DNA of 27,780 nt from a virus. A model generated the notes under the pieces. The model made no database searches, was not told where the DNA came from, and saw nothing but the letters and a program-made list of their open reading frames with translations. A program made the translations under genes and the position numbers. Within the stretch, counting starts at the first letter, position 1. Each line of letters starts with the position of its first letter. Of the stretch, positions 5,608 through 27,780 are shown one piece after another. The stretch spans positions 1 through 27,780 of the IMG/VR virus record IMGVR_UViG_3300047550_006349. One strand, 5' to 3'.

Positions 5608-5886
5608 TTATCCGCCCATGCTGGCTAATTGTTTATTAATCTCATCTATTTCTGATTGTAAGCTGCTTATTGTATTACTTGCCGATTTGGCGGCAAGTAA
5701 ATCAGATTTTTTTTGGTTTAATAAATTTTTTAAATGATCTTTTTGTTTTTTTTGTTGTACTGGGTCTGGTTTTTGTTGTACGGGTTGTTGCATTGCTGTT
5801 GGTGGCACAGACGTATTGTTAAATTCTTCTAACCTACTCAGCTCTTCTTTTATTAATTGTTTTAAAAAACTTTTTGTTATTTTCAT
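5608..5886 (-). CDS. Small putative internal head protein with capsid-targeting-like N-terminus
   Basis: A 92-residue protein starting MKITKSFLKQLIKEEL. Residues 12-14 are I-K-E, a match to the (Ile/Leu)-X-Glu site cut by T4-type gp21 protease. The middle is Gln/Pro-rich (residues 25-48) and the rest is a predicted coiled coil. It is the first gene after the strong terminator behind the capsid gene and has its own promoter-like motif 18 bases before the ATG, with GAGG as ribosome binding site. Four other small proteins in the window have a related start. I recognise no function-bearing domain; packaging inside the head is an inference. Confidence 0.7.
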   Translation of the reverse strand: MKITKSFLKQLIKEELSRLEEFNNTSVPPTAMQQPVQQKPDPVQQKKQKDHLKNLLNQKKSDLLAAKSASNTISSLQSEIDEINKQLASMGG

Positions 5887-5977: not shown

Positions 5978-7804
5978 CTAACCGAGTAGATCCATCACTA
6001 CGCAGAGGCCGTACATGTCTGGGCGAACCATCGCCTTACCATAACGGGTCATAACAGCCTTACGTGGTGTAAAGGTGTCTGGATCGAAGATGGTTGGTGT
6101 GGTTTGTAGTGGAACGTATGGTGAGTATACGTAGCCGCTTTCGAGGAAGCTTGCACCCTTACGACCAACGAGGATTACTGAACGTGGGAAGTATGGGTCA
6201 ACGATTACGTCGAACTTGGCATTTAGAGCGCCAACCTTAACTGCACCGGTTGAGCCTTTTTCGCTATCGTGTGTAACGGTAGCGCGGAAGCCAGCGGTGA
6301 ATTCAAGGATGTTTGCAACTTCTGGTGAAACAACGATGAAGTTTGCACCACCGCGTAGTGTTTTACGGTGGATGTTAGCTGATACGTCGTTGATTGTTTC
6401 TAGTAGTGTTTCGTACCACATTGAAACGTTACCAGTGAAATCTGGTGGGTAGGTTGGACCGCCGCCGACTGCTGATAGATCAGCGCCAGTGTTGCGATTT
6501 ACGAACTTACCGGGACGGCGTGACCAGTACTTAACGCCAGCGGTTGCGCCCTTGACTAGATCGTTTAGGATTTCTTGATCAATTTCAAGACCGATTTGTT
6601 CTGATAGAATTGAAGTTAATTCTACTTCGGCATCGAGGTTGTGGTAAGCGTTTAGGTCTTGGCCGAGTTCTGGAGTCCAAGCTGCCTTGAGCTTACGGGT
6701 ACGGGCAGTGATTGAGAAGCTGTCAACCTTGAGTTGGATCTCAGGGATGTTAGCGCTGTTTTCTAGTGACCAAGGTGAGGTACCAGCAAGTGCGCCGAGA
6801 ACGCTGTTACCAGTGCTGTCGGTTACGCCAGTGAGCTTATCTTTGATTGGAATTTCAACTACTAGTGAACCAACTGAACCAGTAGCAAAATCATCGCCAG
6901 CAGCAAATGAAACTGATGATGAGTGGAGGAATACCATTTCAACGTACTTGGTGCCGAGTGTATCAGCAGCAGCGTAAACGCCAGCGCCTTCAACAACTTT
7001 GGTTAGGCGGCGAACTGGTTGAGCAAGTAGACCAGCTGCTGAAGCAAGTGAACCTGCTGATGTGCCAACGCCAGCTGCTGCTGAGCCTGAAGCGATTGAG
7101 ATTGAGGTTAGATCTTGTTCGGCAATTAATGCACCAGCAGTGGTAAGTGATGATACTGGGAAGCGAACAACAACCGCCTTCTTGGTGGTTTCTGCGAGAA
7201 GATCTGGGTCTTCGCGGAGTAGAGCTGCGCCAGCATCGCTTGGAGCAGAAAGATCAACTGATGCAGTGATTGCAACAACTGATGTACCAGCAAGAGTTTC
7301 AGCATAACGAGCAGTACCGTAACCGCTGGTTAGTGCGAAGAAACCTTTTTCAGCGTAAGCGTTACCGTCTACGCGAACACCTTGACGAATTTGTTCACCG
7401 ACGCGATCACCGAATAGTGATTCACCTTGGGTGATAACTTTGTCGTCTGATAGACCAAGATCGTTACCATGACGGAAGTCCATGAAGAATACTAGACCTG
7501 ATGGTAGGCTCATTGGTTGTACTGAGACTAGATCGTTGGCGATAAGGCCAGCAAATACGCGGCGTACGATTGGGAACGCAACAGCTGCGAAACCTTGTAC
7601 GTCACCACCTGACATGGTGTTAGCTTCGCGGAGTAGTTCTTTGGCTTGGTTTTCAAGTAACATAGCCATTGAACCACGTTGGTATTCGTCACCGATACCT
7701 TCGAGTAGACCTGAAGCTTCCCACTTGCTTACTAGTGCTGCACTTTCTTTTCTTTTGTCTTGGAAGACTGTGCCTTCCGTAAGACGTTCTAATACGTTAG
7801 CCAT
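5978..7804 (-). CDS. gp23: Major capsid protein (gp23-like)
   Basis: This 608-residue protein is the main subunit of the head shell. The segment at about residues 75-110 is the best marker: F-P-I-V-R-R-V-F, then L-V-S-V-Q-P-M-S-L-P-S-G and a F-M-D-F strand, as in T4-type gp23. The N-terminal 60 residues are charged and helical and end L-R-E at 58-60. Cleavage there by gp21 would leave a mature chain starting at Ala61, close to the T4 cut after residue 65. It is longer than T4 gp23 (521 residues), probably through an Ala/Ser/Thr-rich insertion around residues 150-330. Its base composition is visibly richer in G+C than its neighbours. It follows the scaffold gene by 27 bases with a good GAGAGGA site, and ends at a strong terminator. 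Confidence 0.96.
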   Translation of the reverse strand: MANVLERLTEGTVFQDKRKESAALVSKWEASGLLEGIGDEYQRGSMAMLLENQAKELLREANTMSGGDVQGFAAVAFPIVRRVFAGLIANDLVSVQPMSLPSGLVFFMDFRHGNDLGLSDDKVITQGESLFGDRVGEQIRQGVRVDGNAYAEKGFFALTSGYGTARYAETLAGTSVVAITASVDLSAPSDAGAALLREDPDLLAETTKKAVVVRFPVSSLTTAGALIAEQDLTSISIASGSAAAGVGTSAGSLASAAGLLAQPVRRLTKVVEGAGVYAAADTLGTKYVEMVFLHSSSVSFAAGDDFATGSVGSLVVEIPIKDKLTGVTDSTGNSVLGALAGTSPWSLENSANIPEIQLKVDSFSITARTRKLKAAWTPELGQDLNAYHNLDAEVELTSILSEQIGLEIDQEILNDLVKGATAGVKYWSRRPGKFVNRNTGADLSAVGGGPTYPPDFTGNVSMWYETLLETINDVSANIHRKTLRGGANFIVVSPEVANILEFTAGFRATVTHDSEKGSTGAVKVGALNAKFDVIVDPYFPRSVILVGRKGASFLESGYVYSPYVPLQTTPTIFDPDTFTPRKAVMTRYGKAMVRPDMYGLCVVMDLLG

Positions 7805-7831: not shown

Positions 7832-9055
7832 TTATTTTTTGATTCCTGCGAGAATCCGCCAGCGATCCGTTGATGGATCTACTGTGCCTGACGTTCTTGG
7901 TAGAAATGGACTTGGAGCTTTACTTAACGCTTCAGACAATGATTGTGGTACTGCGCGCTTTTCAACTACAGTTTGCATTGTCTTTTGTAAGGTTTCATAA
8001 ACCGTCTTTGCTTCATCTACCGTGGCTGCATTTGAAATGGCTTCGGCAATCTGGTCACGCTGCCGCTCATTTAGGGAGGCATTTCTTAGAGCCTTATTTG
8101 AATAAAGTAAACGTGCGTTGATAAGGTTTACTTCATTAAGTTTTTGACTAAATTGTTCAAAGCTTTCTTTTAATTGAACATTGACAGAAACAGATTTTTT
8201 AAGTTTTGCTTTTGTTTCTGTTAGGGAAACTTTTGATTCAGTTAATTGTTCTTTAGTTAAATTTAATTCTTCTTGTAATGATTCAATTTCAGCGTCTTTC
8301 ACTATTAAATGTTCTTTTAAATCTTCTAATTGCGCAGCTAAAGCTTTTGCAATATTCATTTGACGTTTAACTTCAATGTGGTTTCCTTGAACGCCGCCGG
8401 GAACAACATTTTCCATGTCTAATTGAATTTCTTCTTTAAGAGAATCATCTAGTTCAAAAGACTCTTCTAGAGACTCTTCTTCTTCTTCTTCTTCTTCTTC
8501 TTCTTCTTCTTCTTCTTCTTGATGTTGAATTTCTGGATACGCGCCGCCTTTTGGAGTACCGCCTTTTGGAGTACCGCCTTTTGTAGCAGGAGTAGAAGTT
8601 TCATATTTTTCGCCAGAAGTTTTAGCTTGTTCGGCAAGAGTATCAGTTGCGATACGTGTTGTTGGTTGTGGAGCAACACTTGGTTCTGAAACAGCTGACG
8701 GTTGATCTACGATATGTAGTTCTTTTTTCATAGCATCAACTTTTTCTACTAATGAATCAAGGTCTAAGTCGATTTCTTCCATGTTATTTTCACCAAGATA
8801 TGCTGGTGGGATTTTATCTACTGTTTTTTTGGCAGCTTCAGAAGGTTCGCTGGCGTCTAAACCTAATCCTAAATCTGGAGTTGGAGCGGCGGCTGCTAAT
8901 GGATCGGCTGCTGGTTCATCTTGTTCTAAAAGCATTTCAATACTTTGTTTTATTTTAGATGAATACTTTTCTAATAGGGCAGCTTCTGCGTTTCTACGTG
9001 CTGTTTCTTTTAGTGTTTTTGCATCAATGATGGCTTGTTCAAGCAATGAAGACAT
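7832..9055 (-). CDS. gp22: Prohead scaffold (core) protein, gp22-like
   Basis: This 407-residue protein should form the inner scaffold on which the prohead assembles and which gp21 then degrades. It lies directly upstream of the capsid gene, as in T4. It is very acidic and helical, with a coiled coil at about residues 235-300, and has many (Leu/Ile)-X-Glu sites, including L-L-E at residues 4-6. The middle has a run of 15 Glu and a T-P-K-G-G pentapeptide repeat. The C-terminus ends in a short basic segment after R-W-R-I-L-A-G-I-K-K, suited to touching the capsid protein. T4 gp22 is shorter (about 269 residues), which the low-complexity middle explains. A promoter-like motif stands 31 bases upstream of the ATG. 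Confidence 0.85.
   Translation of the reverse strand: MSSLLEQAIIDAKTLKETARRNAEAALLEKYSSKIKQSIEMLLEQDEPAADPLAAAAPTPDLGLGLDASEPSEAAKKTVDKIPPAYLGENNMEEIDLDLDSLVEKVDAMKKELHIVDQPSAVSEPSVAPQPTTRIATDTLAEQAKTSGEKYETSTPATKGGTPKGGTPKGGAYPEIQHQEEEEEEEEEEEEEEESLEESFELDDSLKEEIQLDMENVVPGGVQGNHIEVKRQMNIAKALAAQLEDLKEHLIVKDAEIESLQEELNLTKEQLTESKVSLTETKAKLKKSVSVNVQLKESFEQFSQKLNEVNLINARLLYSNKALRNASLNERQRDQIAEAISNAATVDEAKTVYETLQKTMQTVVEKRAVPQSLSEALSKAPSPFLPRTSGTVDPSTDRWRILAGIKK
8476..8520. repeat. Trinucleotide microsatellite, (GAA)n on the coding strand
   Basis: Fifteen uninterrupted CTT units on the plus strand, coding for a run of 15 Glu (14 GAA plus one GAG) inside the scaffold gene. Being a triplet repeat, changes in copy number would keep the reading frame. 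Confidence 0.97.
8544..8583. repeat. 15-base tandem repeat coding for T-P-K-G-G
   Basis: Two full copies (8544-8558 and 8559-8573) and a partial third of a 15-base unit, plus-strand CCGCCTTTTGGAGTA. It lies in the scaffold gene next to the Glu run and gives K-G-G-T-P-K-G-G-T-P-K-G-G. Confidence 0.92.
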
Positions 9056-9798: not shown

Positions 9799-10203
9799 TT
9801 AACCAACACCAACAGATCCACTATACGCTGATGTTAAATTAAAGCCGGGTACTATTCCAGTTAAGCCAGCAATAACAGAAGCACTGATCGCGGTCCCGTT
9901 ATTGCTTAATAAAAATATAGAGGATAATTTTAAGTCACCAGAAAAAGCTTCGCCTTTATCAAGTAAAAAATAATTTGTTCCTGTTTTTGTTCCGTTTGAA
10001 CTAAAGCCAACTCTAAGAGTTCCAGATGTTGGATTAATATTTTTTACAACAACAAATTTGGTAACGCTAGGAAAAACTACTTCTATAGGATTACTAGAGG
10101 TTGCTGGAGCTACTATCGATGATGAAGCAAATGGGACACCGCTAACTTGATAATTTCCAACACTGTTTAATCCTGCTTTTAATGATACTGATTGATCTGA
10201 CAT
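9799..10203 (-). CDS. Small beta-rich virion protein, possible head decoration protein
   Basis: A 134-residue protein made of short hydrophobic strands with many Ser, Gly and Thr and no Cys. It contains N-S-V-G-N-Y-Q-V-S-G-V-P-F followed by P-I-E-V-V-F-P-S-V-T-K-F-V-V-V-K-N. I have a memory of similar small proteins beside head genes in aquatic myophages but know no assigned function. Its place between the protease and scaffold genes, paired with a fibre-like gene, fits a capsid surface protein. Ser/Gly-rich ends suggest exposure. There is no transmembrane segment or signal peptide. Confidence 0.5.
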   Translation of the reverse strand: MSDQSVSLKAGLNSVGNYQVSGVPFASSSIVAPATSSNPIEVVFPSVTKFVVVKNINPTSGTLRVGFSSNGTKTGTNYFLLDKGEAFSGDLKLSSIFLLSNNGTAISASVIAGLTGIVPGFNLTSAYSGSVGVG

Positions 10204-10214
10204 TTATATTACCT

Positions 10215-10487
10215 CTATTTACGCTTTTTATCGTCTATCGCTAGTCTTTCTTTTTCATTAAATTCGCGAAGAGCTTTTTCTTTAGCGATACGGCGTTCGC
10301 GGCGTTCTTTTTGTCTTGGAGTTTCAAAACGACGAACTCCTGCACTCTTATCGAAAACGTTATTTTGTAAATCTTCTTTTTTGCAGCTTTTTAAAAACTT
10401 TTTAATTAGTACTTCGTTCATTTCTAAACTTGGTTTTACATCTGGTGGTAGTGCAGCGCTTGCATGTGTTGGTGATTTAACTGACAT
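10215..10487 (-). CDS. bS21-like ribosomal protein of phage type
   Basis: A 90-residue basic protein. From about residue 25 it follows the layout of bacterial ribosomal protein S21: a helix with (L/I)-K-K-F-L-K-S-C-K-K-E, a short middle ending F-E-T-P, then a very basic helix (R-Q-K-E-R-R-E-R-R-I-A-K-E-K). In Escherichia coli S21 the same positions read R-R-F-K-R-S-C-E-K, then F-Y-E-K-P and a Lys/Arg helix. bS21 sits on the small ribosomal subunit near the mRNA exit and helps initiation. Phage copies are known, mainly from phages of aquatic bacteria. Here it has about 20 extra residues at each end. It starts directly at the stop codon of the upstream gene (no gap). An alternative is an unrelated basic head-core protein. 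Confidence 0.58.
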   Translation of the reverse strand: MSVKSPTHASAALPPDVKPSLEMNEVLIKKFLKSCKKEDLQNNVFDKSAGVRRFETPRQKERRERRIAKEKALREFNEKERLAIDDKKRK

Positions 10488-10868
10488 TTATTTTGCCTTT
10501 CCGCCCATTAGGGCGTTCCATATTTTTTTATTGCCGTTCATTAGTTTGCTTATATCAACGCCGGGATCGCTTGGGTCTATATCTTTTAATGGTCCAGTGT
10601 TTGGTCCAGTGTTTGACGCTTGAGATTCTGTTAATGGTTTTGTACCAGAAAATGGATCAAATTTATTATTCACATAACCGCTTTTGCCGATTTCATCAAG
10701 CATACGTTTTCTTTGTTCGTTTACTTGTGTAGACGGTTTTACTTTTTCAATAGCTGGTGGTTGCTTTGATTCGGAAATAAGTTTTGCTAAGCCCTCTTCT
10801 AAAAGAACTTCTTTTATGCACTCTTTTATTAATGGCTTGATAATGCTTTTTAGTTCTTTTGTATTCAT
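10488..10868 (-). CDS. Small putative internal head or core protein with repeated N-terminal motif
   Basis: A 126-residue protein starting MNTKELKSIIKPLIKECIKE, a variant of the N-terminal helix found on four other small proteins here. An I-K-E site falls at residues 14-16 and L-E-E and I-S-E sites follow by residue 33. The rest is polar and rich in Pro, Lys and Ser, with a short C-terminal helix (I-W-N-A-L-M). It begins just after the protease gene, its ATG overlapping that gene's end region, and is followed without gap by the bS21-like gene. I know no function for it. Its position in the prohead cluster and the protease-type sites point to a core or internal protein. Confidence 0.68.
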   Translation of the reverse strand: MNTKELKSIIKPLIKECIKEVLLEEGLAKLISESKQPPAIEKVKPSTQVNEQRKRMLDEIGKSGYVNNKFDPFSGTKPLTESQASNTGPNTGPLKDIDPSDPGVDISKLMNGNKKIWNALMGGKAK

Positions 10869-10869
10869 A

Positions 10870-11472
10870 TTAGCCGCCTAGTATTTTACTAACTAGATCA
10901 TTTAATCTGTTATTTTTAGATTCTTTCATAAGACGTTCTTTGGCTTCTTTTACCATATATGCGTTTGGCGTACTTGGCTCCGAAACCATATCAAAACAAA
11001 TAAGCTGAAAATCATCATCAACGACAGTTACGCCGCCTATTTGATGTGTAGAGCCAAGGCCACGCGAACTAATACCAAGCTTTACGCCACTTTCAACAAG
11101 GGATTTTAATATTTGACCACTTGGAGTTGGTAACACCTTTAATTTACCCATAACAGCCGATCCTTCCCACCAAGTTTTTACTATCAAGTGGGAGGTGTTT
11201 TTTAGATTTATCACTGAGCTTTCTGGGTGGTCCAACTCACCAAGAGCGCGATTTTCCGAAATAACTGATTGATATCTTTCAATTTCGCGACGTAATATTT
11301 TTTCGCTATATTTACGACCGTTTCCGTTCTTTACATCTGCTTCTTGAATTTTGCCAGTAAGATACATTGTGCCATTATTTTTAGCATCAAGCTTCTCGCC
11401 CTCAGTTAAAAAATCTTGGCATGTTCCGTTTGGACATAATTCAAAAAATTCACGTAATAATTGATTATTCAT
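10870..11472 (-). CDS. gp21: Prohead maturation protease (gp21-like)
   Basis: A serine protease of 200 residues that cuts scaffold, capsid and internal proteins after (Ile/Leu)-X-Glu inside the prohead. Seen here are the catalytic histidine in G-E-L-D-H-P (His82) and the serine motif G-I-S-S-R-G (Ser135/136). A conserved F-D-M-V-S-E-P (Asp161) lies near the end of the domain. T4 gp21 has about 212 residues. The frame is open further upstream to a TTG at 11487. I chose the ATG at 11472 because it overlaps the stop of the 36-residue gene (TAATG) and has GGTGG in front of it. L-R-E at residues 6-8 is a possible self-cleavage site. Confidence 0.92.
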   Translation of the reverse strand: MNNQLLREFFELCPNGTCQDFLTEGEKLDAKNNGTMYLTGKIQEADVKNGNGRKYSEKILRREIERYQSVISENRALGELDHPESSVINLKNTSHLIVKTWWEGSAVMGKLKVLPTPSGQILKSLVESGVKLGISSRGLGSTHQIGGVTVVDDDFQLICFDMVSEPSTPNAYMVKEAKERLMKESKNNRLNDLVSKILGG

Positions 11473-11582
11473 TATTGTTTCCACCAAATTGCGGGCGCAA
11501 CCCGCACGTTACTGCTTCCAGAACAGCAACGGCGTACTGGTTGTAACATGTAGCGACGAACAAAAGTTACTTGTTTTCTCAT
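11472..11582 (-). CDS. 36-residue gene overlapping both neighbours, function unknown
   Basis: A short reading frame coding for 36 residues: start MRKQVTFVRRYMLQP, then V-R-R-C-C and end A-I-W-W-K-Q. Its ATG overlaps the stop of the upstream 142-residue gene (ATGA, 11579-11582) and its TAA overlaps the ATG of the protease (TAATG). GGGAAGGAAG stands 4 bases before its ATG. This arrangement of a strong ribosome site and stop/start overlap on both sides is hard to explain unless it is translated. Without it the 107-base stretch between its neighbours would be empty in an otherwise packed cluster. The product is basic with six Arg, two adjacent Cys and two adjacent Trp. I do not recognise it; a small core protein like T4 gp67/gp68 is possible by position only. 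Confidence 0.75.
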   Translation of the reverse strand: MRKQVTFVRRYMLQPVRRCCSGSSNVRVAPAIWWKQ

Positions 11583-12007
11583 TTATCTTCCTTCCCGCTA
11601 AATTCTAGAATTTGTTTTTCTATCCTGCTGCTAAAACGAATATGTGCAGGGGTAGAATCAAACCAATTTATAGCATTACCATCTATTGTAAAACCAAATT
11701 CACCAATAGGAGTTACACGACCACTATTTCTTGTGTCTTTATCGTTAAATTGCAATAAATAAACGTTCTTGCCATCTGTTAGAAATAGCTCACCTTCGAC
11801 ATCTTTCGGTCCAGCTACTTCGCCTGATAGTTCATATGGTTCACGACCCTGATATGGCTGATAAGTTCTATTATCAATAGGTTGGCCGTCTGGATAATTT
11901 TTTGTATAGCCATAACCGGGGTATACGTTTCCTTCCCCGGCTCTTGCTGGCATACCGCCTATTTCTTCCATTATTAGCTTCTTTAATTGGTTTTTAGATA
12001 TTTTCAT
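11579..12007 (-). CDS. Putative internal head protein with capsid-targeting-like N-terminus
   Basis: A 142-residue protein starting MKISKNQLKKLIMEEI, with the I-M-E protease-type site at residues 12-14. The next part is Gly/Pro/Tyr-rich (Y-P-G-Y-G-Y-T-K-N-Y-P). Residues 60-142 look like a small beta domain with a T-D-G-K-N-V-Y-L-L-Q-F strand and T-P-I-G-E-F-G-F-T-I-D-G. No ribosome binding site is visible before the ATG; instead a CTATTTAT motif stands only 6 bases upstream. The stop overlaps the 36-residue gene (ATGA). Function unknown. Location directly before the protease and the N-terminal motif suggest a head-internal protein. Confidence 0.72.
   Translation of the reverse strand: MKISKNQLKKLIMEEIGGMPARAGEGNVYPGYGYTKNYPDGQPIDNRTYQPYQGREPYELSGEVAGPKDVEGELFLTDGKNVYLLQFNDKDTRNSGRVTPIGEFGFTIDGNAINWFDSTPAHIRFSSRIEKQILEFSGKEDK
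11587..11596 (-). promoter_or_regulatory. Strong ribosome binding site for the 36-residue gene
   Basis: GGGAAGGAAG on the coding strand, ending 4 bases before the ATG at 11582. It lies inside the last codons of the 142-residue gene and supports calling the small gene. Confidence 0.7.
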
Positions 12008-12024: not shown

Positions 12025-12297
12025 TTATTTTTTATTAGTTTTTATATTTATAAGAATACCTTCATCATCAACAAGTCGACTTATAAAATACGATGTTCCG
12101 CTTGATATACACCCTGCTATAAAAGTATTAAATGGAAGCTCAAAAAAGCATATTGCATTTAATACGCCTATCCAGAAACCCATACACATTGGGCAGCGAA
12201 AGAAATGATATTGCGGTCTAATAGCATCAAAAATTTTGCCATAGACCGCAATCATTGTCGCGCCATAACAAGCTAAAATAAAAGTTAATAAAATCAT
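12025..12297 (-). CDS. Small membrane protein with C-P-M-C-M-G-F-W motif
   Basis: A 90-residue protein with hydrophobic segments at residues 1-18, about 38-55 and about 57-72. Between the first and second is R-C-P-M-C-M-G-F-W-I-G. The C-x-x-C-x-G-F-W combination is shared with small membrane proteins of the DUF1360 type and, in my memory, with a family common in aquatic T4-like phages. The paired Cys could bind a metal or form a disulphide. Its ATG shares one base with the stop of the upstream gene (TAATG), so translation is probably coupled. No function can be named; its presence in a head-gene cluster is odd for a membrane protein. Confidence 0.65.
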   Translation of the reverse strand: MILLTFILACYGATMIAVYGKIFDAIRPQYHFFRCPMCMGFWIGVLNAICFFELPFNTFIAGCISSGTSYFISRLVDDEGILINIKTNKK

Positions 12298-12857
12298 TAT
12301 TTATTTTTTCTTTCAAGTTTTAGCATTGATCTTGCCTGTTGTTCATTAGACCCGCCAATAGATCCTTTAACTTTATCTTCTAAAGCTTTGATGGAATCTG
12401 TTACAGCGGCGATTTTGTTATATATTTCGCCTCCTTCTTTTTTTGCTGGGAACGGGATTGTTTCAATCCTTGGTCCAGCGTCTGTATCAATTTCTCTTGT
12501 TGTTTTTTTTGTTTTAAGTATTTTCTCTAGTTGGTCAAGAGAAGTGTACATATCGGCAATGCTTTTATCAAAAGATTTGATAACAGAATCAAAATTGTTT
12601 AAAAAAATCTGATCTTGCTTTCTTTTTTCAGCAAATTCTTTTTCGCCTGTTCTTTTTTGTTTCTCAACTTCTCGCGCATCCGCTGCACTAGAAAGTTTAC
12701 CGCCTAACTCAGTAGCTCTTTTTGAAATTCCTCTTAACGCGCTTGTTCCCGCGTCTCTAATTGTATCCAAAAAAGCTTCGTCGATTTCGCCTTCTTCTAA
12801 CATCTTTTGAATTTCTTCTTGAATAATTGCTTTGACTTGCGATTCTTTAATAACCAT
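12297..12857 (-). CDS. Putative internal head or core protein with capsid-targeting-like N-terminus
   Basis: A 186-residue, strongly charged and helical protein starting MVIKESQVKAIIQEEI, with I-Q-E at residues 12-14 and L-E-E soon after. Residues 30-75 are rich in Ala, Arg, Lys and Glu, and residues 80-175 look like two coiled helices separated by a Pro/Gly segment (R-I-E-T-I-P-F-P-A-K-K-E-G-G). There are no Cys or Trp residues. A strong AGGAGA site precedes the ATG. It lies between the portal and the protease, where T4 has the core proteins gp67 and gp68. Role as a prohead core or packaged protein is inferred from position and the N-terminal motif. Confidence 0.72.
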   Translation of the reverse strand: MVIKESQVKAIIQEEIQKMLEEGEIDEAFLDTIRDAGTSALRGISKRATELGGKLSSAADAREVEKQKRTGEKEFAEKRKQDQIFLNNFDSVIKSFDKSIADMYTSLDQLEKILKTKKTTREIDTDAGPRIETIPFPAKKEGGEIYNKIAAVTDSIKALEDKVKGSIGGSNEQQARSMLKLERKNK

Positions 12858-13433: not shown

Positions 13434-14251
13434 TATGCTTTTACCTCATGCAAAAATTGCTGCACATACATAACCTTTTTTATTAAATCATCATTAATTT
13501 CTGAGAATTTAAAAGAATTAAGTGACTCATTGATTTTTGCAACATTTCCTGTTGTATCAGAATTTTTTACTTGCTCAAGGTCTGACTTGAGTCTTGTTAT
13601 TTCTTCATTTAAATAAACTTTAAATTCTAGATCGTCCTCTGAGTGGTTAATATATTTTGTTAATAATTCTTTTTGTTCTTCCAAAAGTGATTCATTATAT
13701 GTTTCATTAAAACGATCAACAAATCTATTAATTACAGTAGCGTCATAAACATCAGTTTTTTTATTTTCAGTTATTAGTTTACCAGTGATGTTACCTAATA
13801 GTTCTTGCTCTAACAAAACTTTTTGTTTTGCTTCTACGTTTTTATTAAAAATTTGCGAAATCGTTGCAAGAGTTTTATAGTTTGGCACGAAATTATCATA
13901 AACTTTTGCACCAAATGATTTATTTACTTTAGCTATAAGGCGACTTTGTTCGTTATATATATCGTTTTCGTTTAACTTATCGTGTTCTTGTTTTACAGCA
14001 TCAATAAGTTTTTCGGCTATTTCTTTAGGAAAATCTTTTGTTTCATAAAGCTGCTTATAAAGACATAACTCTTTATTTAAAACGTTGTTTTTATTAAAAA
14101 ATTCTTTTATTAAACCAGATATTGCAATTTGTTTATGTTTTTCTTCGTAAATTACAGCTTTTGTTAATTCTTTTACTAATGATTCAAATAAAAAAGCTGT
14201 ATTGCGTTTTTTGTTATGTTTATGTTTTGGCTTTTCTAGCTTATTTTGCAT
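13433..14251 (-). CDS. Helical protein next to portal, possible prohead core protein
   Basis: A 272-residue, almost wholly helical and highly charged protein. It begins with a His/Lys-rich stretch (P-K-H-K-H-N-K-K-R) and then N-T-A-F-L-F-E-S-L-V-K-E-L-T-K-A. Many Leu/Ile-X-Glu sites are present (L-N-E, L-E-Q, L-L-E, I-N-E). Its start overlaps the end of the portal gene by 11 bases. In T4 the genes directly after the portal encode the core proteins gp67 and gp68, which gp21 degrades; this protein holds the matching place. I recall similar proteins in other aquatic myophages, always unnamed. The core-protein role is inferred. Confidence 0.68.
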   Translation of the reverse strand: MQNKLEKPKHKHNKKRNTAFLFESLVKELTKAVIYEEKHKQIAISGLIKEFFNKNNVLNKELCLYKQLYETKDFPKEIAEKLIDAVKQEHDKLNENDIYNEQSRLIAKVNKSFGAKVYDNFVPNYKTLATISQIFNKNVEAKQKVLLEQELLGNITGKLITENKKTDVYDATVINRFVDRFNETYNESLLEEQKELLTKYINHSEDDLEFKVYLNEEITRLKSDLEQVKNSDTTGNVAKINESLNSFKFSEINDDLIKKVMYVQQFLHEVKA

Positions 14252-16103
14252 CCTTTTTCTCCAAAGCTGTCACCAGATTTTTTATATCCTGATTGACTTC
14301 ATGCAATCTTTTTTCGTTTTCGTCTTCTTTATAAGTAGTTTCTCTGTAGAGAGAAGCCATTGATTCATAGCCGGGAATCATAGTTCTAGCTGTATTTCTT
14401 CTAGCGCCCTCTGGATGGGCTTCTGACCGCATCCAAGATGCTACTTTTTTGGAATCGGAGCTTCTCATATCTGGTTTATCATCGCGGCGCTTAGCTGCTG
14501 GTAATTCTTCTACTGATAATGGTCCTTCCTCTTTTTCTGGCGTTTCACCAGCACCACCAGCGCCACCAGCCAAAGCTGCTGCTTCATCCCCGCCACCAGC
14601 GCCACCTAAACCAGCTTCTGCGCCAGCACCAGCTTCTGCCCCAGTAGCAATTGTTTCAAGTGATTTTTCAAATTGTTTATCGTAATATATTTCACGTTGA
14701 ATTTTCTTAAATTCCATCTCAGAAAGATTGAAAACATTTTCCGAAATCCAGCGTTTGCTAAAGAATCCATCTTTTGCCTGACCAGCAACTTCAAACTTAG
14801 TTTTCCAGTGTTCAAGTTCTTGTAACTCTGAAATCTTAGATGGATTATTTAGCGATAAGCTAAAGTTTAATAAATCTTCATTTCTATAGCCAAGTGTAAA
14901 TAAATGAATAATGCCAATCTTTTCAAGTTCGGCTACAAGCACTCTTTGTAATCTTTGAATAGTTCTTGCAAAACGAATATCTTTTTGAGCTAATGTTGTC
15001 TTGTCTTCTGACGCTTTATCATCGCGTGCAAGATAACTTTGTGGAATTTTAAGTGCGGAGAATAATTTATCGCGCAAATATTTTACGTCTTCAATGTCGC
15101 CAACGAAATTTCCACCATTTAGTGTATCAATCTTTGTATTTGAAGATCCACGAGTTGGAACGAAATAATCTTCGTCAATGCTCATTGGATTATAACGAAG
15201 ATCAACACGCCCAGTTGATGGATCAACAATCATGTTACGCTTCATTTGTGCTTGAATTTTTAACATGTATTGTTCAACGTCTTCTGGAGCAATATTTCCA
15301 ACATCAATATAGAATACACGACGATCTGGCGCACGAACGATGCGATATGCCATCATGGCATCTTCTAGGAGGTTTAATTGACGCCAAATACGACGGGCTG
15401 GTTCTAATACGCTTGTTCCATATGGTGCGTATTTGTCTTGTCCAAGAATACGGAAATGTGCAATTTGCCAATTTTCAAAAGTTAAACCACCGCTATTCCA
15501 TTGAAATTGCACATAGTTAGGATTTGTTTTATCTTGTCCTTCAAGACGCTCTACTTCTTGCGAAGGAAGACCAATTGCATTACGAATACCGAGTTCTGGG
15601 TCTATTTCAAGATAGAGAAACATATCGCCAAACTTACACATCGTTCGGCACCAACCAAAAAGATTGAACTCAATATTTAATACATCATAATAAAGTGATT
15701 CAAGAATACCTCGTATCTCTTGATTAGAAGATTTAATGTGTAGCATTTTATTCATGCTACTGTGCGTTGTCATTTCATCGGCATAAATATCAAGAGTGCT
15801 AGCTATTTCAGGAGTATATTCCATTTGATCAAAGTCGCTATAACGTTCTGCGCGAGTTTGATTTGCCATAATATTGGCTTGAATTGCATCAAATGGGTTA
15901 TAGCTTGTTCTTTGAAATTGTTTACCGCTTGCGCTATTAAAATTAAATTTATTTAAATCACGACGACGAAATCTTAACTGCGCCTGTTGTCTAAAATTAA
16001 CAAGCGGACCAGAAAATAATCTAGTTAAACTTTTAAAAAGTGGAGATTCGGGATTCTTTATGTTTTTATTAAACTTTCCACCTTTGTTTTGCTGATTTGC
16101 CAT
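14241..16103 (-). CDS. gp20: Portal vertex protein (gp20-like)
   Basis: This 620-residue protein should form the ring at one head vertex through which DNA enters and leaves. It lies directly after the large terminase, as expected. The sequence has portal-family features: Y-S-D-F-D-Q-M-E-Y-T-P-E-I-A-S-T-L-D-I-Y-A-D-E near residue 90-112, a wing region with W-C-R-T-M-C-K-F-G-D-M-F-L-Y-L-E, and a R-R-V-F-Y-I-D-V-G-N strand. The clip and stem region contains Y-L-R-D-K-L-F-S-A-L-K-I-P-Q-S-Y-L. T4 gp20 has 524 residues. The extra length is a Gly/Ala/Glu-rich low-complexity segment at about residues 475-520 and a charged C-terminal tail. Confidence 0.92.
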   Translation of the reverse strand: MANQQNKGGKFNKNIKNPESPLFKSLTRLFSGPLVNFRQQAQLRFRRRDLNKFNFNSASGKQFQRTSYNPFDAIQANIMANQTRAERYSDFDQMEYTPEIASTLDIYADEMTTHSSMNKMLHIKSSNQEIRGILESLYYDVLNIEFNLFGWCRTMCKFGDMFLYLEIDPELGIRNAIGLPSQEVERLEGQDKTNPNYVQFQWNSGGLTFENWQIAHFRILGQDKYAPYGTSVLEPARRIWRQLNLLEDAMMAYRIVRAPDRRVFYIDVGNIAPEDVEQYMLKIQAQMKRNMIVDPSTGRVDLRYNPMSIDEDYFVPTRGSSNTKIDTLNGGNFVGDIEDVKYLRDKLFSALKIPQSYLARDDKASEDKTTLAQKDIRFARTIQRLQRVLVAELEKIGIIHLFTLGYRNEDLLNFSLSLNNPSKISELQELEHWKTKFEVAGQAKDGFFSKRWISENVFNLSEMEFKKIQREIYYDKQFEKSLETIATGAEAGAGAEAGLGGAGGGDEAAALAGGAGGAGETPEKEEGPLSVEELPAAKRRDDKPDMRSSDSKKVASWMRSEAHPEGARRNTARTMIPGYESMASLYRETTYKEDENEKRLHEVNQDIKNLVTALEKKDAK

Positions 16104-16106
16104 TTA

Positions 16107-17681
16107 TTATCCTTTTAATAACCACAAGAAATCTTGGTAAACTTTTTTGTTTGTATTAAACTCTACTTCTTTATGATTATACATCCCTTTGATAGAGGTA
16201 TTTAAGCTACTTCCTGCTTTTCCTATAGAAGCTAAGATTGCTTTACTTAATTCTGTGTCCTTTTGACTGTTTATTAGCGTTGTATCGCGAACCCAACAGG
16301 CAATAGCAAGTGACATAACCAAGTCATCGTTATAGCCTTTTTGCGCTTCTGGCCTACCGTTTACCCAAACAAACTTTTCTAATTCTCTAACTAGTCTTTG
16401 TGAATTTATAGCGATAGCTTTATTTCTTATAAACTCATCAAGTTTTGCAATAATAAGTGGTCTTGTTTTTACTGAGGTTGTAAAACCGGGAACAACATTG
16501 CTGTTTCCTATAGCGGAATTAGGTTCCACATATTCATGGCTTGTTTTATTTGAATAATATAAATTTCTATATCCTAATTCCGCAACACGTTGAGCTACTG
16601 TAAACCCAATGTTATTATTTTCAATAACAAGGAGTGCGTTACCATATTCTTTACCGGCATCCATAAGAAATTTAGCAAATTGATCTGGCTCGCATTTTCC
16701 TTGATATTCTGCTACTTGCTCCATAGTAGAAACATTGATTATATGGAATACAGAATAATCTTCTCCGTCACCACGGGCAACGTCTGCAACAAGCAAGTAT
16801 TTTCCTTGATGATTGTATGGCTTCCAGATGTGATAATTTCTATCTATCCATGATTTATGTTTTGGCTCGCTAACAGATTTACGCAAATAATCCATTTCTT
16901 CTGGATCTATTACTGTTTCGCCGCTTGCATTAAAATTACATAAATATTCCTGAGCGATTTCTCGCTTAGCCATATTTTTTGTTTCATTATCAAACCAATC
17001 TTGATCATGCTCTGGATGCACGCTCCAAGGCAAATTTGTTGGAATAAACAGATTTTGTCCGTTTTCTGCATCTTCATATGTTTTATGAAACCAATTGCCT
17101 ATACCATTTGGAGATGAAAGAGCAATACAACGACCACCAGTAGAGATGGTAGGGTATAAACCGGTCCAAATGCTATCCATATTGTCAATATGCGCAGCTT
17201 CGTCTACTACAAGTAACGATACCGCTTCTGAACGACCGGCATCTTCGCTTGTTGGGATTGCTTTTATCTGTGAACCATTTGTAAGTTCAAATGAGTGTTT
17301 GTTATCAATACTAACTGTAGCTATTTTTAACCAATCTGGTACGTTTTTAATAAGAAACTTTACCTTTTTTACCATATTGCTGGCTGTACTATACTTGGTA
17401 GCCATAACAAGAACGTTTTTTTCGCGATAAAATAGTAATAACCAAGAAATATAGCCCGCACAGATGGTAGAAATACCAAGCTGACGGGCTTTCACTATAA
17501 CATTAAAACGGTGATCGCGAAATTTATCTAATAAATCATCTTGGAAATCATATGTCTTAAAAGGTATTGCACCTTTTTCTGGATGGGTTATTCTTGCATA
17601 ATTTTTGAGAAAATATGCGGGATTTTTACCACATTTTATTATTTCTTTTTTTATCTCCTCAACTGTTAACTCATCTGACAT
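16107..17681 (-). CDS. gp17: Terminase large subunit, packaging ATPase and nuclease (gp17-like)
   Basis: This 524-residue motor protein pumps DNA into the prohead and cuts the concatemer. The ATPase domain shows the adenine-side Q-D-D-L (residues 47-50) and the Walker A-like K-A-R-Q-L-G-I-S-T (64-72), which lacks the classical Gly-Lys-Ser but is common in terminases. It also shows Walker B L-L-V-V-D-E (156-161) and the coupling motif S-S-P-N-G (189-193). The nuclease domain has the acidic triad expected of the RNase H fold: Asp300 in L-L-V-A-D-V-A-R-G-D-G-E-D, Glu354 in L-V-I-E-N-N, and Asp452/453 in Y-N-D-D-L-V-M. T4 gp17 has 610 residues. The portal gene follows 3 bases later. Confidence 0.95.
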   Translation of the reverse strand: MSDELTVEEIKKEIIKCGKNPAYFLKNYARITHPEKGAIPFKTYDFQDDLLDKFRDHRFNVIVKARQLGISTICAGYISWLLLFYREKNVLVMATKYSTASNMVKKVKFLIKNVPDWLKIATVSIDNKHSFELTNGSQIKAIPTSEDAGRSEAVSLLVVDEAAHIDNMDSIWTGLYPTISTGGRCIALSSPNGIGNWFHKTYEDAENGQNLFIPTNLPWSVHPEHDQDWFDNETKNMAKREIAQEYLCNFNASGETVIDPEEMDYLRKSVSEPKHKSWIDRNYHIWKPYNHQGKYLLVADVARGDGEDYSVFHIINVSTMEQVAEYQGKCEPDQFAKFLMDAGKEYGNALLVIENNNIGFTVAQRVAELGYRNLYYSNKTSHEYVEPNSAIGNSNVVPGFTTSVKTRPLIIAKLDEFIRNKAIAINSQRLVRELEKFVWVNGRPEAQKGYNDDLVMSLAIACWVRDTTLINSQKDTELSKAILASIGKAGSSLNTSIKGMYNHKEVEFNTNKKVYQDFLWLLKG

Positions 17682-18245: not shown

Positions 18246-19121
<876 letters not shown>

Positions 19122-20554: not shown

Positions 20555-23500
20555 CTATTGGTTTACGTAAGCAAAATTTCCCTGTCTATCTATGTTAATT
20601 TGCATATCAACTGCGTCTTTGAGCGCATCAAGATGCGAAATTAGTAACACTGTCTTAAAATACCCCTTAATTAGTTCCAAGATGCGAATAAAACCAGCCA
20701 GATTATCATTGTCTAGCGCTGTTCCCGGTTCATCTAAGATTATGATATCGCTTTTTGGTAAGCTAGTAACGTTTAAAAAAGCCAATCTGATAGCGATTGA
20801 GGCAAGTGATTTTTCTGCTCCACTACCCATTTCTAGTGGGCGGGCATCATATTTTGGATGCTTGATCATAATATCCAGCTTATCATCATCGTTTACAAGG
20901 AATATTTGAAATTCTACTACGTTAGCTAACATTTTATTTATTTCTGCATTAATAACTGGTAATTTGTCCTTGATAACTTGATAAGAAATACCGTTTGGAT
21001 GCATTGCTTTCAAGTATAGATCATAAGCAGCAAACTCTTTACGTTTTTCTGCTAGTTCCATTTTTTGCTCTTCTAATGTTTCTAAAGTAGAAACATGATA
21101 GCCACTTTCTTTATAAAGAGTTGTAATTTTTTGTTGAATACGGCTTGTTTCTCCCTCTAAATCGTTTATTTTGAGCTTACAAGCTTTTTCATTTTCTTGT
21201 AATTTTTGAAGTGTAGCAACTAAATCTTTTTTTAGTTCTAGTTGAGCTAGTTTTTCATTGCAATCTTTTAATGAGCTATTTGTGCTTAGGAGCTTTTCTT
21301 GTTGTCTTTCAAGATCAAGACGTAGATTTTCTGTTTGTAAATCAATTTTAGATTGTAAAGCAATAGCAGAATTATACGAAGCAATTTTTTTATTCAAATC
21401 TTCTAATCTGCTTTGATCTAGAGCTAGTCTTTTTTCGTTTACTTTTGTAGATAGTTGTACAAGTTGTTGTTCAATACTAGGTTTTTGCTCCTTAGCTGAA
21501 AATGCATCCCTAATAAACTTACAGGATGAATATTCATCGCCACATGGGACATCGGAAAGCAAAGAAATACGCTTTGTTAAATCATTGTTGGATTGTGAAA
21601 CGAGTTTATAGTCTGATTCAAGACGCGACAACTCTTTACTATCGGCATCAATAGAAGCTTTTTCTCTTAAAACAGCTTGAATATCGATTAACAAATCAGC
21701 AGCGATGCTCTCGCTTTTTTGTTGAAGCTCTTTAATAGATGATTCTATCTGCTTTATTTTATTCTCTACTAAATTTACTGTTTCTTCAAGAGTTTTCTTA
21801 TTTTCTAGCAGTTCAGATGGCGATCCAATATCCATCTTCATGCTCTTAATCGTTGTAACAAGTTCAAGAAGCTCATCACGCTTTTTTGAAAGAGCCAATT
21901 GAACAATTTCTGATAGCTCTTTTTGTTCTTTTATGTTATTTTCGCTTTTCTTTATTTCTTCTTTTGTTTTTTCAATTTCCGAATCATAGTCAACGGTGTC
22001 TAGTTTTTTGAGTACAGCCTTAATCTCAGAGGCTTCGCCCTTTGCAAGCTTGAACTTGGCTTCAAAAATGTCCAAATCAAGAAACTTAGCAAGAATAGCC
22101 TTGCGTTGTGTTGAACCTTCACCAATAAAAGCAAGGGAATTTAACTGGCTTGCCATAGATGTCAAAAGAAAGTCATCAACCGTTCCAACAAATCTACGGA
22201 TATTTTTATCAGTATCACTACGGTCCAAACCATTATGAAGATCTTCGGATTCCTCTGAGAAAATAACATCTGTTTTAGCCTCTACGGTTTCAGCGCCCTT
22301 GCTTTTTTTGATATATTTTTCACTTGTGCGTTCAATAGAATATTCGTTTCCATTGATATCAAATACAATCTTTCCACGACCTTTTTCTCGATTTTGGTTA
22401 ATGATATTTAAGTTCTTACGATTATTTTTTGAGGTTGTATTAAAAACCGTATACATCAACGAATCAATAACTGATGATTTGCCAGTATAATTTTTACCAA
22501 ATATACCAACAACGCCATTTAGTTTATCAAAATCAAGCTTATTTCCTTCTCCATAATTAAAAAGATTGTCCCACTCAAGAGATTTAATCTTCCAATTTAT
22601 GTTTCTAGCAACTTCTTCGCCCTGTTCTACTTCGGAATTAAACCGCTTATTCATATCAAAGATTTTTTCTAATGCCTCATTGTCAGGATTATAATCCTTT
22701 AGATATGAACGAATTATTTCCTCTTGTACAGCCAAATCGCGAAGATTCATCGTTTTTGATAGGCTAGAAACCTCTTGTAGATTTTCCTTGCCTTCGACGC
22801 TTTTGTTTACATACGTTACGCTCTCTGGTTTAAAGCGCGTTTTGGCTGCATCAATAGCATTTTTTACTCTATCAACAGATAGATTGTTGCGCGATACTAA
22901 CCGAATACGCGATCCTTTTGGCAAATTGATACTATCACCAATTTCACCTTCTAGACCAAGTTCAATAGTAATAAATGGTCTTGGGTTGGGAATACAAATA
23001 TGCCGAACATCAAAAATGTTCTTATCTCTTATATTCCAAATAAGGAAACCCTTATCGTCTGTTTCACCAAAGTTCTGTTGTAATGTTGACCCAGCGTAGC
23101 GCATACGTCCATCTGGATCTACTTTTTGATTAGCTAAATGAATATCTCCGAGCAATGCATAATCATGGCCTTCAAAAATATCTATAACGTCGTCACCATG
23201 TTCAATAACATAGCCAGTATCTGTAATGACACCATTAATAGAGCCGTGATATAGCGCAATATTAATTCTATCCCGAGATGATGGTTTTACCCATCCTTCC
23301 TTATCAAAAATACTAAGGACATTGAACGATAGAGTATCATTAACAATATATTCGCCACTATTTTTATAAAGCGTAATACGTGGATTGTTTAATGCCGTGA
23401 CAATTGGCGAAATTGCATCTTGTCGATTACTATTACGTAGGTTCCCGTCGTGGTTTCCTAAAATAATATGTAGTGGAGCAATTTCTGCTAAGTTTGTAAA

Positions 23501-23692
23501 GAAATTGCCGCACATATCAACAAATTCTGGGCTGATCTGAGTTTTTGTATGAGCAATATCGCCCGTGTGAACAATATAATCTACTTTTTCGTTACGTAGA
23601 TGCTCATAAATTTTTTCAAATACTTGTGTATATTCATCATGTTGCTTTAGCGATTTTATATGTGTGTCCGACAGATGGCAAATTTTGGGCAT
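20555..23692 (-). CDS. gp47-gp46: Fused Mre11-Rad50 type nuclease-ATPase (gp47-gp46 fusion, SbcCD-like)
   Basis: One 1045-residue chain combining two proteins that are separate in T4. Residues 1-310 are an Mre11/SbcD/gp47 phosphoesterase, with motifs S-D-T-H (Asp9, His11), G-D-x-x-H (Asp45, His48), G-N-H-D (80-82), Y-H-G-S and G-D-I-H. From about residue 375 there is a Rad50/SbcC/gp46 ATPase: Walker A G-K-N-Y-T-G-K-S (Lys405), two long coiled coils, signature G-S-G-A-E-K-S (about 957), Walker B I-I-I-L-D-E-P-G (about 985) and I-S-H-L-D. The coil apex holds C-x6-C (Cys717, Cys724) instead of the usual C-x-x-C zinc hook. In T4 the complex resects DNA ends for recombination-dependent replication. 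GAGG precedes the ATG; a terminator lies just upstream. Confidence 0.92.
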   Translation of the reverse strand: MPKICHLSDTHIKSLKQHDEYTQVFEKIYEHLRNEKVDYIVHTGDIAHTKTQISPEFVDMCGNFFTNLAEIAPLHIILGNHDGNLRNSNRQDAISPIVTALNNPRITLYKNSGEYIVNDTLSFNVLSIFDKEGWVKPSSRDRINIALYHGSINGVITDTGYVIEHGDDVIDIFEGHDYALLGDIHLANQKVDPDGRMRYAGSTLQQNFGETDDKGFLIWNIRDKNIFDVRHICIPNPRPFITIELGLEGEIGDSINLPKGSRIRLVSRNNLSVDRVKNAIDAAKTRFKPESVTYVNKSVEGKENLQEVSSLSKTMNLRDLAVQEEIIRSYLKDYNPDNEALEKIFDMNKRFNSEVEQGEEVARNINWKIKSLEWDNLFNYGEGNKLDFDKLNGVVGIFGKNYTGKSSVIDSLMYTVFNTTSKNNRKNLNIINQNREKGRGKIVFDINGNEYSIERTSEKYIKKSKGAETVEAKTDVIFSEESEDLHNGLDRSDTDKNIRRFVGTVDDFLLTSMASQLNSLAFIGEGSTQRKAILAKFLDLDIFEAKFKLAKGEASEIKAVLKKLDTVDYDSEIEKTKEEIKKSENNIKEQKELSEIVQLALSKKRDELLELVTTIKSMKMDIGSPSELLENKKTLEETVNLVENKIKQIESSIKELQQKSESIAADLLIDIQAVLREKASIDADSKELSRLESDYKLVSQSNNDLTKRISLLSDVPCGDEYSSCKFIRDAFSAKEQKPSIEQQLVQLSTKVNEKRLALDQSRLEDLNKKIASYNSAIALQSKIDLQTENLRLDLERQQEKLLSTNSSLKDCNEKLAQLELKKDLVATLQKLQENEKACKLKINDLEGETSRIQQKITTLYKESGYHVSTLETLEEQKMELAEKRKEFAAYDLYLKAMHPNGISYQVIKDKLPVINAEINKMLANVVEFQIFLVNDDDKLDIMIKHPKYDARPLEMGSGAEKSLASIAIRLAFLNVTSLPKSDIIILDEPGTALDNDNLAGFIRILELIKGYFKTVLLISHLDALKDAVDMQINIDRQGNFAYVNQ

Positions 23693-23760: not shown

Positions 23761-24153
23761 CTACTGATCTTCTCCGCGTTCTTCTCGCTTAACTAAATTA
23801 TCTAGCATTTGTTTGATTTCTTCGATTTCTTTTTGAACACGATCCATATCATCAAGTGCTGTCTTGAATTGTTCTTGTGACATTACTGATATTTTTGCTT
23901 TTGGCATTTCATCATATGCTTTTATTCTTTTACGTAATTTTTCGCCTTCCTCCACAAATATATCAGCTATATTTTGTAAACTCATTTCTTCTTCCGGAAC
24001 TGGTCCGGTCGGATCTTCATAAGTTCGTTCTGTTGAGCGAAGACTAACATGCTCTGGATCGTCTAGGTATGGATCTGATTCATACTCAGATGGTTTTGCT
24101 TCTTGTATAGTTTCAACTATAAGTTTTTTAAGTGTGGTTCTGTTTAATTTCAT
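23761..24153 (-). CDS. Putative internal head protein with capsid-targeting-like N-terminus, in the replication region
   Basis: A 130-residue acidic protein starting MKLNRTTLKKLIVETI, with I-V-E at residues 12-14 and I-Q-E at 16-18. The next 40 residues are Asp/Glu/Pro-rich (D-P-Y-L-D-D-P-E-H, E-D-P-T-G-P-V-P-E-E-E), followed by helical segments ending in a coiled coil with K-R-E-E-R-G-E-D-Q. It is the last gene before a strong terminator and 10 bases downstream of the primase. It is the only member of the N-terminal motif group that is not in the head-gene cluster. I recognise no domain. A packaged protein is the main hypothesis; a small partner of the primase is the alternative. Confidence 0.7.
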   Translation of the reverse strand: MKLNRTTLKKLIVETIQEAKPSEYESDPYLDDPEHVSLRSTERTYEDPTGPVPEEEMSLQNIADIFVEEGEKLRKRIKAYDEMPKAKISVMSQEQFKTALDDMDRVQKEIEEIKQMLDNLVKREERGEDQ

Positions 24154-26309: not shown

Positions 26310-27440
26310 TTATTTCATTACATCGTTGATAAGTTTACCATAACCCTCTACGTTCCTTGGGTGTTCTGGTAAAAATTGTTCTATATATCTTCTTGATTTT
26401 TCTAAATATTTTTTGGCGACATCGCCAGTATCAAAAGTTTTAATAACTTTTTCTAAATGTTTTACAGCTTTGTCTACGTCATAACGGTCATAATACCAAC
26501 CAAGCTCTTTTACAAACTCTGCGTTATGGATAACCGGCCACCCCAGCCAAGCGGCATCAAAATATAAATAGTTTAAACCTATATCTTGTTGATGGGATAA
26601 AACAACATCTGTATGGTTAAACAAACACCACGCAATAGAATAACGGTTTTCAAAAAATATTTTCTTTTGTTTATTAATGTCTAAATCTACAACAAAGTTT
26701 ATAAGTTCCTTTTGTGATCTTATGTGTTGTGTGCCAAAAATGTTTAATTTTTCTAAAAGATGGCTATTTTTTTTGCAAAATTTTTCACCAGTTATTATCG
26801 GAGTTATGCAAGTCTTATTCATACTTATGTTTGGCTCAAAAACGCATACTTTTTTATCTTTTTTTCCGCTTGGTTTATAAAAACCGTCTGTATCTATATG
26901 CTTTTTTTCGATTTCTACATCATGCATAAGAAATTTTGGCGACCAAATATATGGACCGATGTGCGCTGGTGCATCATATAAGACTTCAAATAGGTGTTTG
27001 TTAGTCTCGTAAAGATGAGGTGAAATCCAAGCAGCAGAATAATGTTTTTGTCTTGTTATTATTCCACCTTTTGATTCTTTAAAAAGAACACTTTCCGAAA
27101 AAGCGTAATATTCATTACCCATAATATGGTTAATAAACTTTATTCCTTTTCGAGCGCCTTCTTCTAAAATATCACCAGATAACGTAACATTTACGCAAAG
27201 AATAAGGTCTACTTTTTCAAGAGCTTGCTGATAATCAATAATGTACGGTTCATATTCTTTCCAAGGAGATTGAGAAAGATCTTTTTGCGAACCCATGTTT
27301 ATATAATAAACTTCGCCAACAATTCCCGTTTTTAAAAACGTATCACGTAAAATAATAGAGTTTTGTCGTATTCCGTTTGTAAAAAAACTCTCTGTTGGAG
27401 TTTTTATCATTATTGTAATTCCAATATTTATTTTTCTCAT
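26310..27440 (-). CDS. DUF2827 family protein, glycosyltransferase-like
   Basis: A complete 376-residue protein. It shows the DUF2827 landmarks I know: an N-terminal I-G-I-T-I strand with F-F-T-N-G-I-R-Q-N, the P-Y-I-W-S-P segment (163-168), F-E-P-N-I-S followed by K-T-C (201-211), and the block S-H-Q (282-284) with N-Y-L-Y-F-D-A-A-W-L-G-W-P-V-I-H-N (290-306). The two-domain layout resembles GT-B glycosyltransferases, and the family is usually described as glycosyltransferase-like without a proven substrate. It might modify phage DNA, a virion protein or a host glycan. The ATG overlaps the stop of a paralog by 4 bases (ATGA). No terminator is clear at its end. Confidence 0.82.
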   Translation of the reverse strand: MRKINIGITIMIKTPTESFFTNGIRQNSIILRDTFLKTGIVGEVYYINMGSQKDLSQSPWKEYEPYIIDYQQALEKVDLILCVNVTLSGDILEEGARKGIKFINHIMGNEYYAFSESVLFKESKGGIITRQKHYSAAWISPHLYETNKHLFEVLYDAPAHIGPYIWSPKFLMHDVEIEKKHIDTDGFYKPSGKKDKKVCVFEPNISMNKTCITPIITGEKFCKKNSHLLEKLNIFGTQHIRSQKELINFVVDLDINKQKKIFFENRYSIAWCLFNHTDVVLSHQQDIGLNYLYFDAAWLGWPVIHNAEFVKELGWYYDRYDVDKAVKHLEKVIKTFDTGDVAKKYLEKSRRYIEQFLPEHPRNVEGYGKLINDVMK

Positions 27441-27780
27441 TTATAAAGTACTCCTTCGATTAAATCTTCGTATTTATTGATATTGTTTTTGTTATCTGTA
27501 AAATATTTTTCTGCATAATTACGCGATTTTGCCATATATTCATTTTTATTTTTATCAAAAGTTGTTACTATTTTATATAATAGTTCTATAGCTTCATCTA
27601 CGTTGTTATCCTTGTAATACCAACCAAGATCTTTCATGAGATGTGAATTGTGTAATATAGGATAACCAAGCCAAGCAGAATCTAAATATAAGTAGTTTAA
27701 TGCACAACCTTCCTGATGAGATACAACTATGTCCGTATATTTAGCAAGCGATGGCACTATTGCATAGCCAGATTCAAAAA
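27437..27780 (-). CDS. Second DUF2827 protein, C-terminal part only (5' end beyond the window)
   Basis: The frame is open to the window edge, giving the last 113 residues. The first readable residues, F-E-S-G-Y-A-I-V-P-S-L-A-K-Y-T-D-I-V-V, align with F-E-N-R-Y-S-I-A-W-C-L-F-N-H-T-D-V-V of the next gene. S-H-Q, N-Y-L-Y-L-D-S-A-W-L-G-Y-P-I-L-H-N and G-W-Y-Y follow in the same order. It is a tandem paralog of the downstream gene and overlaps it by 4 bases. A GTG at 27757 is not a likely start, since homology continues upstream of it. Confidence 0.8.
   Translation of the reverse strand, partial: FESGYAIVPSLAKYTDIVVSHQEGCALNYLYLDSAWLGYPILHNSHLMKDLGWYYKDNNVDEAIELLYKIVTTFDKNKNEYMAKSRNYAEKYFTDNKNNINKYEDLIEGVLYK

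Follow-up and report, generated by a model that had tools for sequence, protein, structure and literature searches.

The window (the whole 27,780-nucleotide stretch analysed, a 27.8-kb viral record) is from an uncultured T4-like phage and is probably a fragment, and all its evident genes are located on the minus strand, including the bS21-like gene P0001. This gene and its neighbours in the head-gene region are:

5978..7804, minus strand, major capsid protein gp23 (Pfam E=6e-73, and PHROGs)
9799..10203, minus strand, conserved hypothetical protein of 134 aa, downstream of the bS21-like gene
10215..10487, minus strand, bS21-like gene P0001, 90 aa (ORF list, profiles, synteny and dN/dS)
10488..10868, minus strand, hypothetical gene between the protease and the bS21-like gene, with a similar protein in the same slot in loci L019 and L118
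10496..10499, minus strand, Shine-Dalgarno-like AAGG, 8 nt before the ATG of the bS21-like gene
10870..11487, minus strand, prohead core protease (Peptidase_S77), the synteny anchor (Pfam PF03420 E=2e-29, and PHROGs)
14241..16103, minus strand, portal protein gp20 (Pfam E=2e-76, and PHROGs)
16107..17681, minus strand, terminase large subunit (Pfam and PHROGs)

The preliminary description placed a gene for a 90-residue product at 10215–10487, inside the head-gene cluster, and both statements are borne out: an ORF of 90 codons has exactly these coordinates on the minus strand, and it is flanked by T4-type protease, portal and capsid genes by Pfam and PHROGs, lying within a few genes of the prohead protease and the major capsid gene as it does in phage Mel-JY01. 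The plus strand of the same interval is full of stops. Relatives of the protein in IMG/VR show 58–91% identity, and the dN/dS of the gene against seven relatives is 0.06–0.24; the conserved ORF is therefore a real gene under purifying selection. No base separates its ATG from the TAA that ends the upstream gene, indicating that the two are probably translationally coupled. The prohead protease is listed with a TTG start, and an in-frame ATG 15 nt inside the CDS is the likelier one.

Several other features of the window were noted. A shared N-terminal leader, MK(I/L)(T/S/N)KxxLKx(L/I)IxEE, is found on otherwise different small proteins at 5608–5886 and 11579–12007, with variants at 12297–12857 and 23761–24153 (all minus), and in the related loci leaders of this type are present in 48 ORFs, 30 of them distinct examples, with none on the opposite strand. 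It is similar to a capsid-targeting leader of the kind that the prohead protease cleaves, and the proteins bearing it could be ones that are packaged in the head. The ORF of 1,045 aa at 20555–23692 (minus) has the N-terminus of a calcineurin-like phosphoesterase (E=8e-13) and weak matches to SMC/Rad50-like ATPases over residues 369–1031, and apparently encodes a fusion of the nuclease and ATPase that are separate proteins, gp47 and gp46, in T4. A DUF2827 protein (E=1e-85) is encoded by 26310–27440 (minus), and beside it, at the window edge, its C-terminal part is repeated incompletely (27437–27757, minus). Homopolymeric stretches occur within coding sequence: about 16 Glu in the 407-aa protein encoded ahead of the capsid gene (7832–9055, minus) and about 12 Gln in a 291-aa protein (18246–19121, minus).

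The bS21-like protein can be divided into the following parts:

10428..10487, minus strand, proline-rich N-terminal extension, residues 1–20, MSVKSPTHASAALPPDVKPS, a low-confidence coil in the structure model
10374..10427, minus strand, helix 1, residues 21–38, LEMNEVLIKKFLKSCKKE, matching helix 1 of E. coli bS21, DVALRRFKRSCEKA
10335..10346, minus strand, insertion of 4 residues, SAGV, at about residues 48–51 relative to all other aligned S21 proteins, its placement being uncertain by a few residues
10221..10319, minus strand, long charged C-terminal helix, residues 57–89, starting in the FETP motif that is aligned with YEKP of bS21

Of the ribosomal proteins found in phages bS21 is the commonest, and the preliminary description assigned the product to this family from its S21 layout. 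The motif of helix 1, (A/I)-x-(K/R)-F-x-(K/R)-x-(C/V)-x-K, is present and precedes (Y/F)-x-x-P and a basic helix (LIKKFLKSCKK ... RFETP), and F31 and K36 are invariant in 28 aligned proteins. A direct match to the family was not obtained. Ribosomal_S21 (PF01165) in Pfam matches neither the window protein nor any of nine members of its clade, single-sequence searches with the window protein found no S21 in NCBIfam, in the PDB sequences or in the phage collection, and its matches in PHROGs are at chance level. The lack of a significant Ribosomal_S21 match with the window protein alone is a result that the preliminary description had named as formally speaking against its family call, and the call stands instead by profiles and synteny. 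With a profile built from the clade only, the best match outside the clade is the syntenic S21 of locus L060 (E=5.6e-6) and the first 40 matches outside the clade are all S21-like, while the top three among all PDB sequences are bS21, each of them weak (E 0.32–0.67). Conversely, in the ranking by a profile of S21 proteins built without the clade, no unrelated ORF comes before any clade member (3e-4 to 0.19 for the clade against 0.41, with 5,838 ORFs scored), and comparison of the two kinds of profile with hhalign gives a probability of 91.6% and E=8e-7.

The gene order points to the same family. With the prohead protease as anchor 80 loci were fetched, of which 71 are testable, their protease being intact and the sequence continuing far enough past it; the other nine end early at a contig end. 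In 71 of 71 an S21-type gene is located downstream of the protease on the same strand in exactly one copy, at a distance of 367–2,298 bases and mostly with one gene between. The syntenic orthologs in the outer, more distant branches are ordinary Ribosomal_S21 proteins scoring 29–57 bits (the Pfam cut-off is 27) and also match phrog_21469, whereas window-type proteins match neither model. A second Pfam-detectable S21 was not found in the 162-kb relative belonging to the clade (L013, IMGVR_UViG_3300023174_000058). Because the reciprocal profiles and the synteny connect it to bS21 through intermediates, the window protein is a statistically supported homolog of bS21 and, judged by gene position, a diverged positional ortholog. 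That it is instead a small basic phage protein with a chance resemblance to S21 would agree with the missing direct match to any S21 model, but the reciprocal ranking, the hhalign result and the exact synteny of a single-copy gene with Pfam-positive S21 genes leave this reading strongly disfavoured and hardly credible.

In the tree of the protease the window type constitutes one supported group (100/99), which includes L023, a contig that stops before the S21 slot, and the deeper branches L075, L077 and Mel-JY01 have an ordinary S21 in the same place. The window type is therefore derived: in the simplest account the ordinary state is ancestral and an ordinary S21 was remodelled to give this type. 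In the preferred reading, an ordinary S21 gene near the prohead protease predates the diversification of this phage group.

The protein has been remodelled in several respects. The Phe of helix 1 is residue 31 in the window protein and residue 19 in E. coli bS21, corresponding to about 12 extra N-terminal residues, so the N-terminal extension claimed in the preliminary description is found; the C-terminal extension that it also claimed is not, with 33 residues after the conserved Pro against 30 in E. coli, and it had missed the 4-residue insertion, which comes after helix 1 and ahead of FETP and the basic helix. Conservation is highest in helix 1, the signature of S21, where the mean pairwise identity within the clade is 79%, against 75% for the first 20 residues and 39% for the C-terminal tail. 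The Gly after helix 1 is lost. The net charge is +10 (clade mean about +11) compared to a mean of +20 in other phage S21s, and there are many acidic residues in the C-terminal helix, more than in the other phage S21s. Glu70, 13 residues after the conserved Pro, aligns with Tyr54 of Flavobacterium johnsoniae in a helix whose alignment is gap-free but not anchored by identity, and there is no aromatic residue at this position.

A structure model of the window protein, made with an alignment of the fetched loci only, has a pLDDT of 74 and a pTM of 0.37 and shows three helices in the same order as in an ordinary ortholog, with a middle helix of 13 residues compared to 9 in the model of the latter. 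Foldseek with this low-confidence model found no S21, and neither Foldseek against PDB and BFVD nor VIA-align gave anything useful, a negative that is only partly informative since the model is weak. As a positive control, the model of the ordinary ortholog L089 found ribosomal S21-type chains in 19 of the 20 rows listed. The control finds S21 and the window model does not, suggesting that the variant departs from S21, and this is the main ground for caution regarding its function.

In the published model (PMC9723584, PMC6375957), the bS21 of a phage takes the place of its host counterpart and, late in infection, gives phage messages an advantage. The phage bS21 genes described by Chen et al. 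(2022, PMC9723584) are from large freshwater phages and are, like the window gene, located within a few genes of the terminase, portal, prohead protease and capsid genes, and those in the head cluster are transcribed late. In their clades, however, the bS21 gene is on the strand opposite to the head genes, while the window gene and its counterparts in all of the 71 loci are co-directional with them, and the window bS21 is therefore not filed in these clades. Their proteins also have an aromatic residue at the Tyr54 position where the window protein has the aligned Glu, and are closest to bS21 of Bacteroidetes, whereas the window protein is beyond Pfam detection and its phage uses Shine-Dalgarno (SD) sites. 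The bS21 of Pelagibacter phage HTVC008M is likewise a phage-encoded S21 and enters E. coli ribosomes when expressed, and the ribosomes containing it showed almost no activity with a reporter (Mizuno et al. 2019, PMC6375957), but it has an ordinary S21 sequence (MSITVVV...YYEKPS) with neither the N-terminal extension nor the linker insertion, and its gene is outside the head cluster. Exactly the same slot is occupied in the cultured Microcystis phage Mel-JY01 (PP395634), with protease, one hypothetical gene, RpsU and then capsid on the same strand; its RpsU is a recognisable S21, found with an E. coli S21 query, and does not have the 4-residue insertion. By analogy to these systems, ribosome exchange late in infection is plausible for the window protein.

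The preliminary description further supposed that late virion genes are distinguished by strong AGGAG-type sites, which was not confirmed. AGGAG or AGGAGG precedes only 5 of the 31 window genes and is not concentrated on the virion genes. SD sites in general are present in 16 of 29 window genes compared to 3% of control ATGs, and in the 162-kb relative SD cores are found before 44–61% of the genes in seven of eight 20-kb bins, with 2–8% at internal ATGs. The eighth bin (L112, positions 80001–100000) has SD cores in 13% of 15 genes, far below the others. SD use is thus about equally common across nearly the whole of this genome, and SD strength cannot single out late messages.

Such genome-wide use indicates that the host is probably an SD-using bacterium and argues against Bacteroidota. 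A Bacteroidota host would otherwise allow a mechanism in which a swapped-in protein uncovers the anti-SD and so favours SD-bearing phage messages, because it has no aromatic residue of the Tyr54 type, which in F. johnsoniae stacks on the anti-SD. It would fit with Glu70, with the SD-rich genes of the window, with the gain of SD use by F. johnsoniae ribosomes carrying Y54A (PMC9976891) and with Flavobacterium phage immuto being among the best capsid matches. The SD sites of the 162-kb relative would nevertheless have to work from the start of infection, and immuto, taken as control, has SD cores in 0–2% of its genes; the mechanism was rejected on these grounds and is very improbable. Counts of Bacteroidota and sigma-70 promoter motifs are near chance and uninformative, with no clear excess of the Bacteroidota type, and the sole genome record with the protease is alphaproteobacterial: a search of bacterial and archaeal genomes with the protease gave one contig (L118, PAAR01000001.1, from a Micavibrio MAG), and close relatives of the bS21-like protein were not found in these genomes. 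The contig holds a phage fragment with protease, hypothetical gene and ordinary S21-like gene in the same order as in the window. It hints weakly at an alphaproteobacterial host for some members of the group, unless it is a contamination, and is too little to name the host.

Taken together, we consider that the window gene probably encodes a remodelled phage bS21 that replaces host bS21 on the ribosome and alters the surface of the platform. Co-expression with the head genes is likely from the order of the genes and from the start codon that adjoins the upstream gene, and the protein would thus be translated together with these late in infection. It would then occupy the site of host bS21 on the 30S platform, where helix 1 and the basic helix would dock on 16S rRNA close to its anti-Shine-Dalgarno end, and the conserved N-terminal extension and the longer middle helix may reshape the mRNA-binding (SD) region of the phage-loaded ribosomes, so that initiation would be biased to phage messages by something beyond SD strength alone. 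A more far-reaching variant, which we regard as possible but tentative, is that the proline-rich arm and the extra helical turn on the S21 core give the protein a function beyond substituting for the host copy, such as gripping phage mRNA, or an initiation factor, on the 30S platform regardless of SD strength.

The main rival to ribosome replacement is that a protein descended from bS21 has lost its ribosomal site and now has a role in head morphogenesis or another RNA-binding role. The remodelled middle helix would fit with this, and the reduced charge, the acidic residues of the C-terminal helix and the model that finds no S21 in Foldseek are compatible with ribosome binding being altered or lost. 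The location between head genes and the protease linkage in every testable locus could also suggest a function in the head, but ordinary S21 genes share the identical linkage and the position is thus no argument for a head role of the variant. Further, it is helix 1 that is best conserved, and the window protein does not have the MK-(I/L)-x-K leader of the neighbouring small proteins. We therefore regard loss of the ribosomal site as unlikely, and replacement of host bS21 by the remodelled protein as the preferred reading.

That phages encode bS21, that the gene can be placed in the head cluster and that it is transcribed late is already known (Chen 2022; Mizuno 2019). New, as far as the literature searched shows, are a monophyletic S21 variant with an N-terminal extension, a 4-residue insertion that makes the middle helix longer and a lower net charge that is invisible to the family models, and the invariant co-directional linkage of protease and S21 in this phage group. 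A clade in which S21 is reshaped at defined places with the slot being kept provides naturally occurring variants with which the importance of the individual parts of the protein can be probed. If the more far-reaching variant is true, the rebuilt bS21 would be a dedicated phage subunit that retunes ribosomes and has passed beyond recognition by models of the S21 family. Some phage bS21 proteins escape surveys that rely on family models, so that their prevalence is undercounted, and the position near the prohead protease recovers phage bS21 genes that such models miss.
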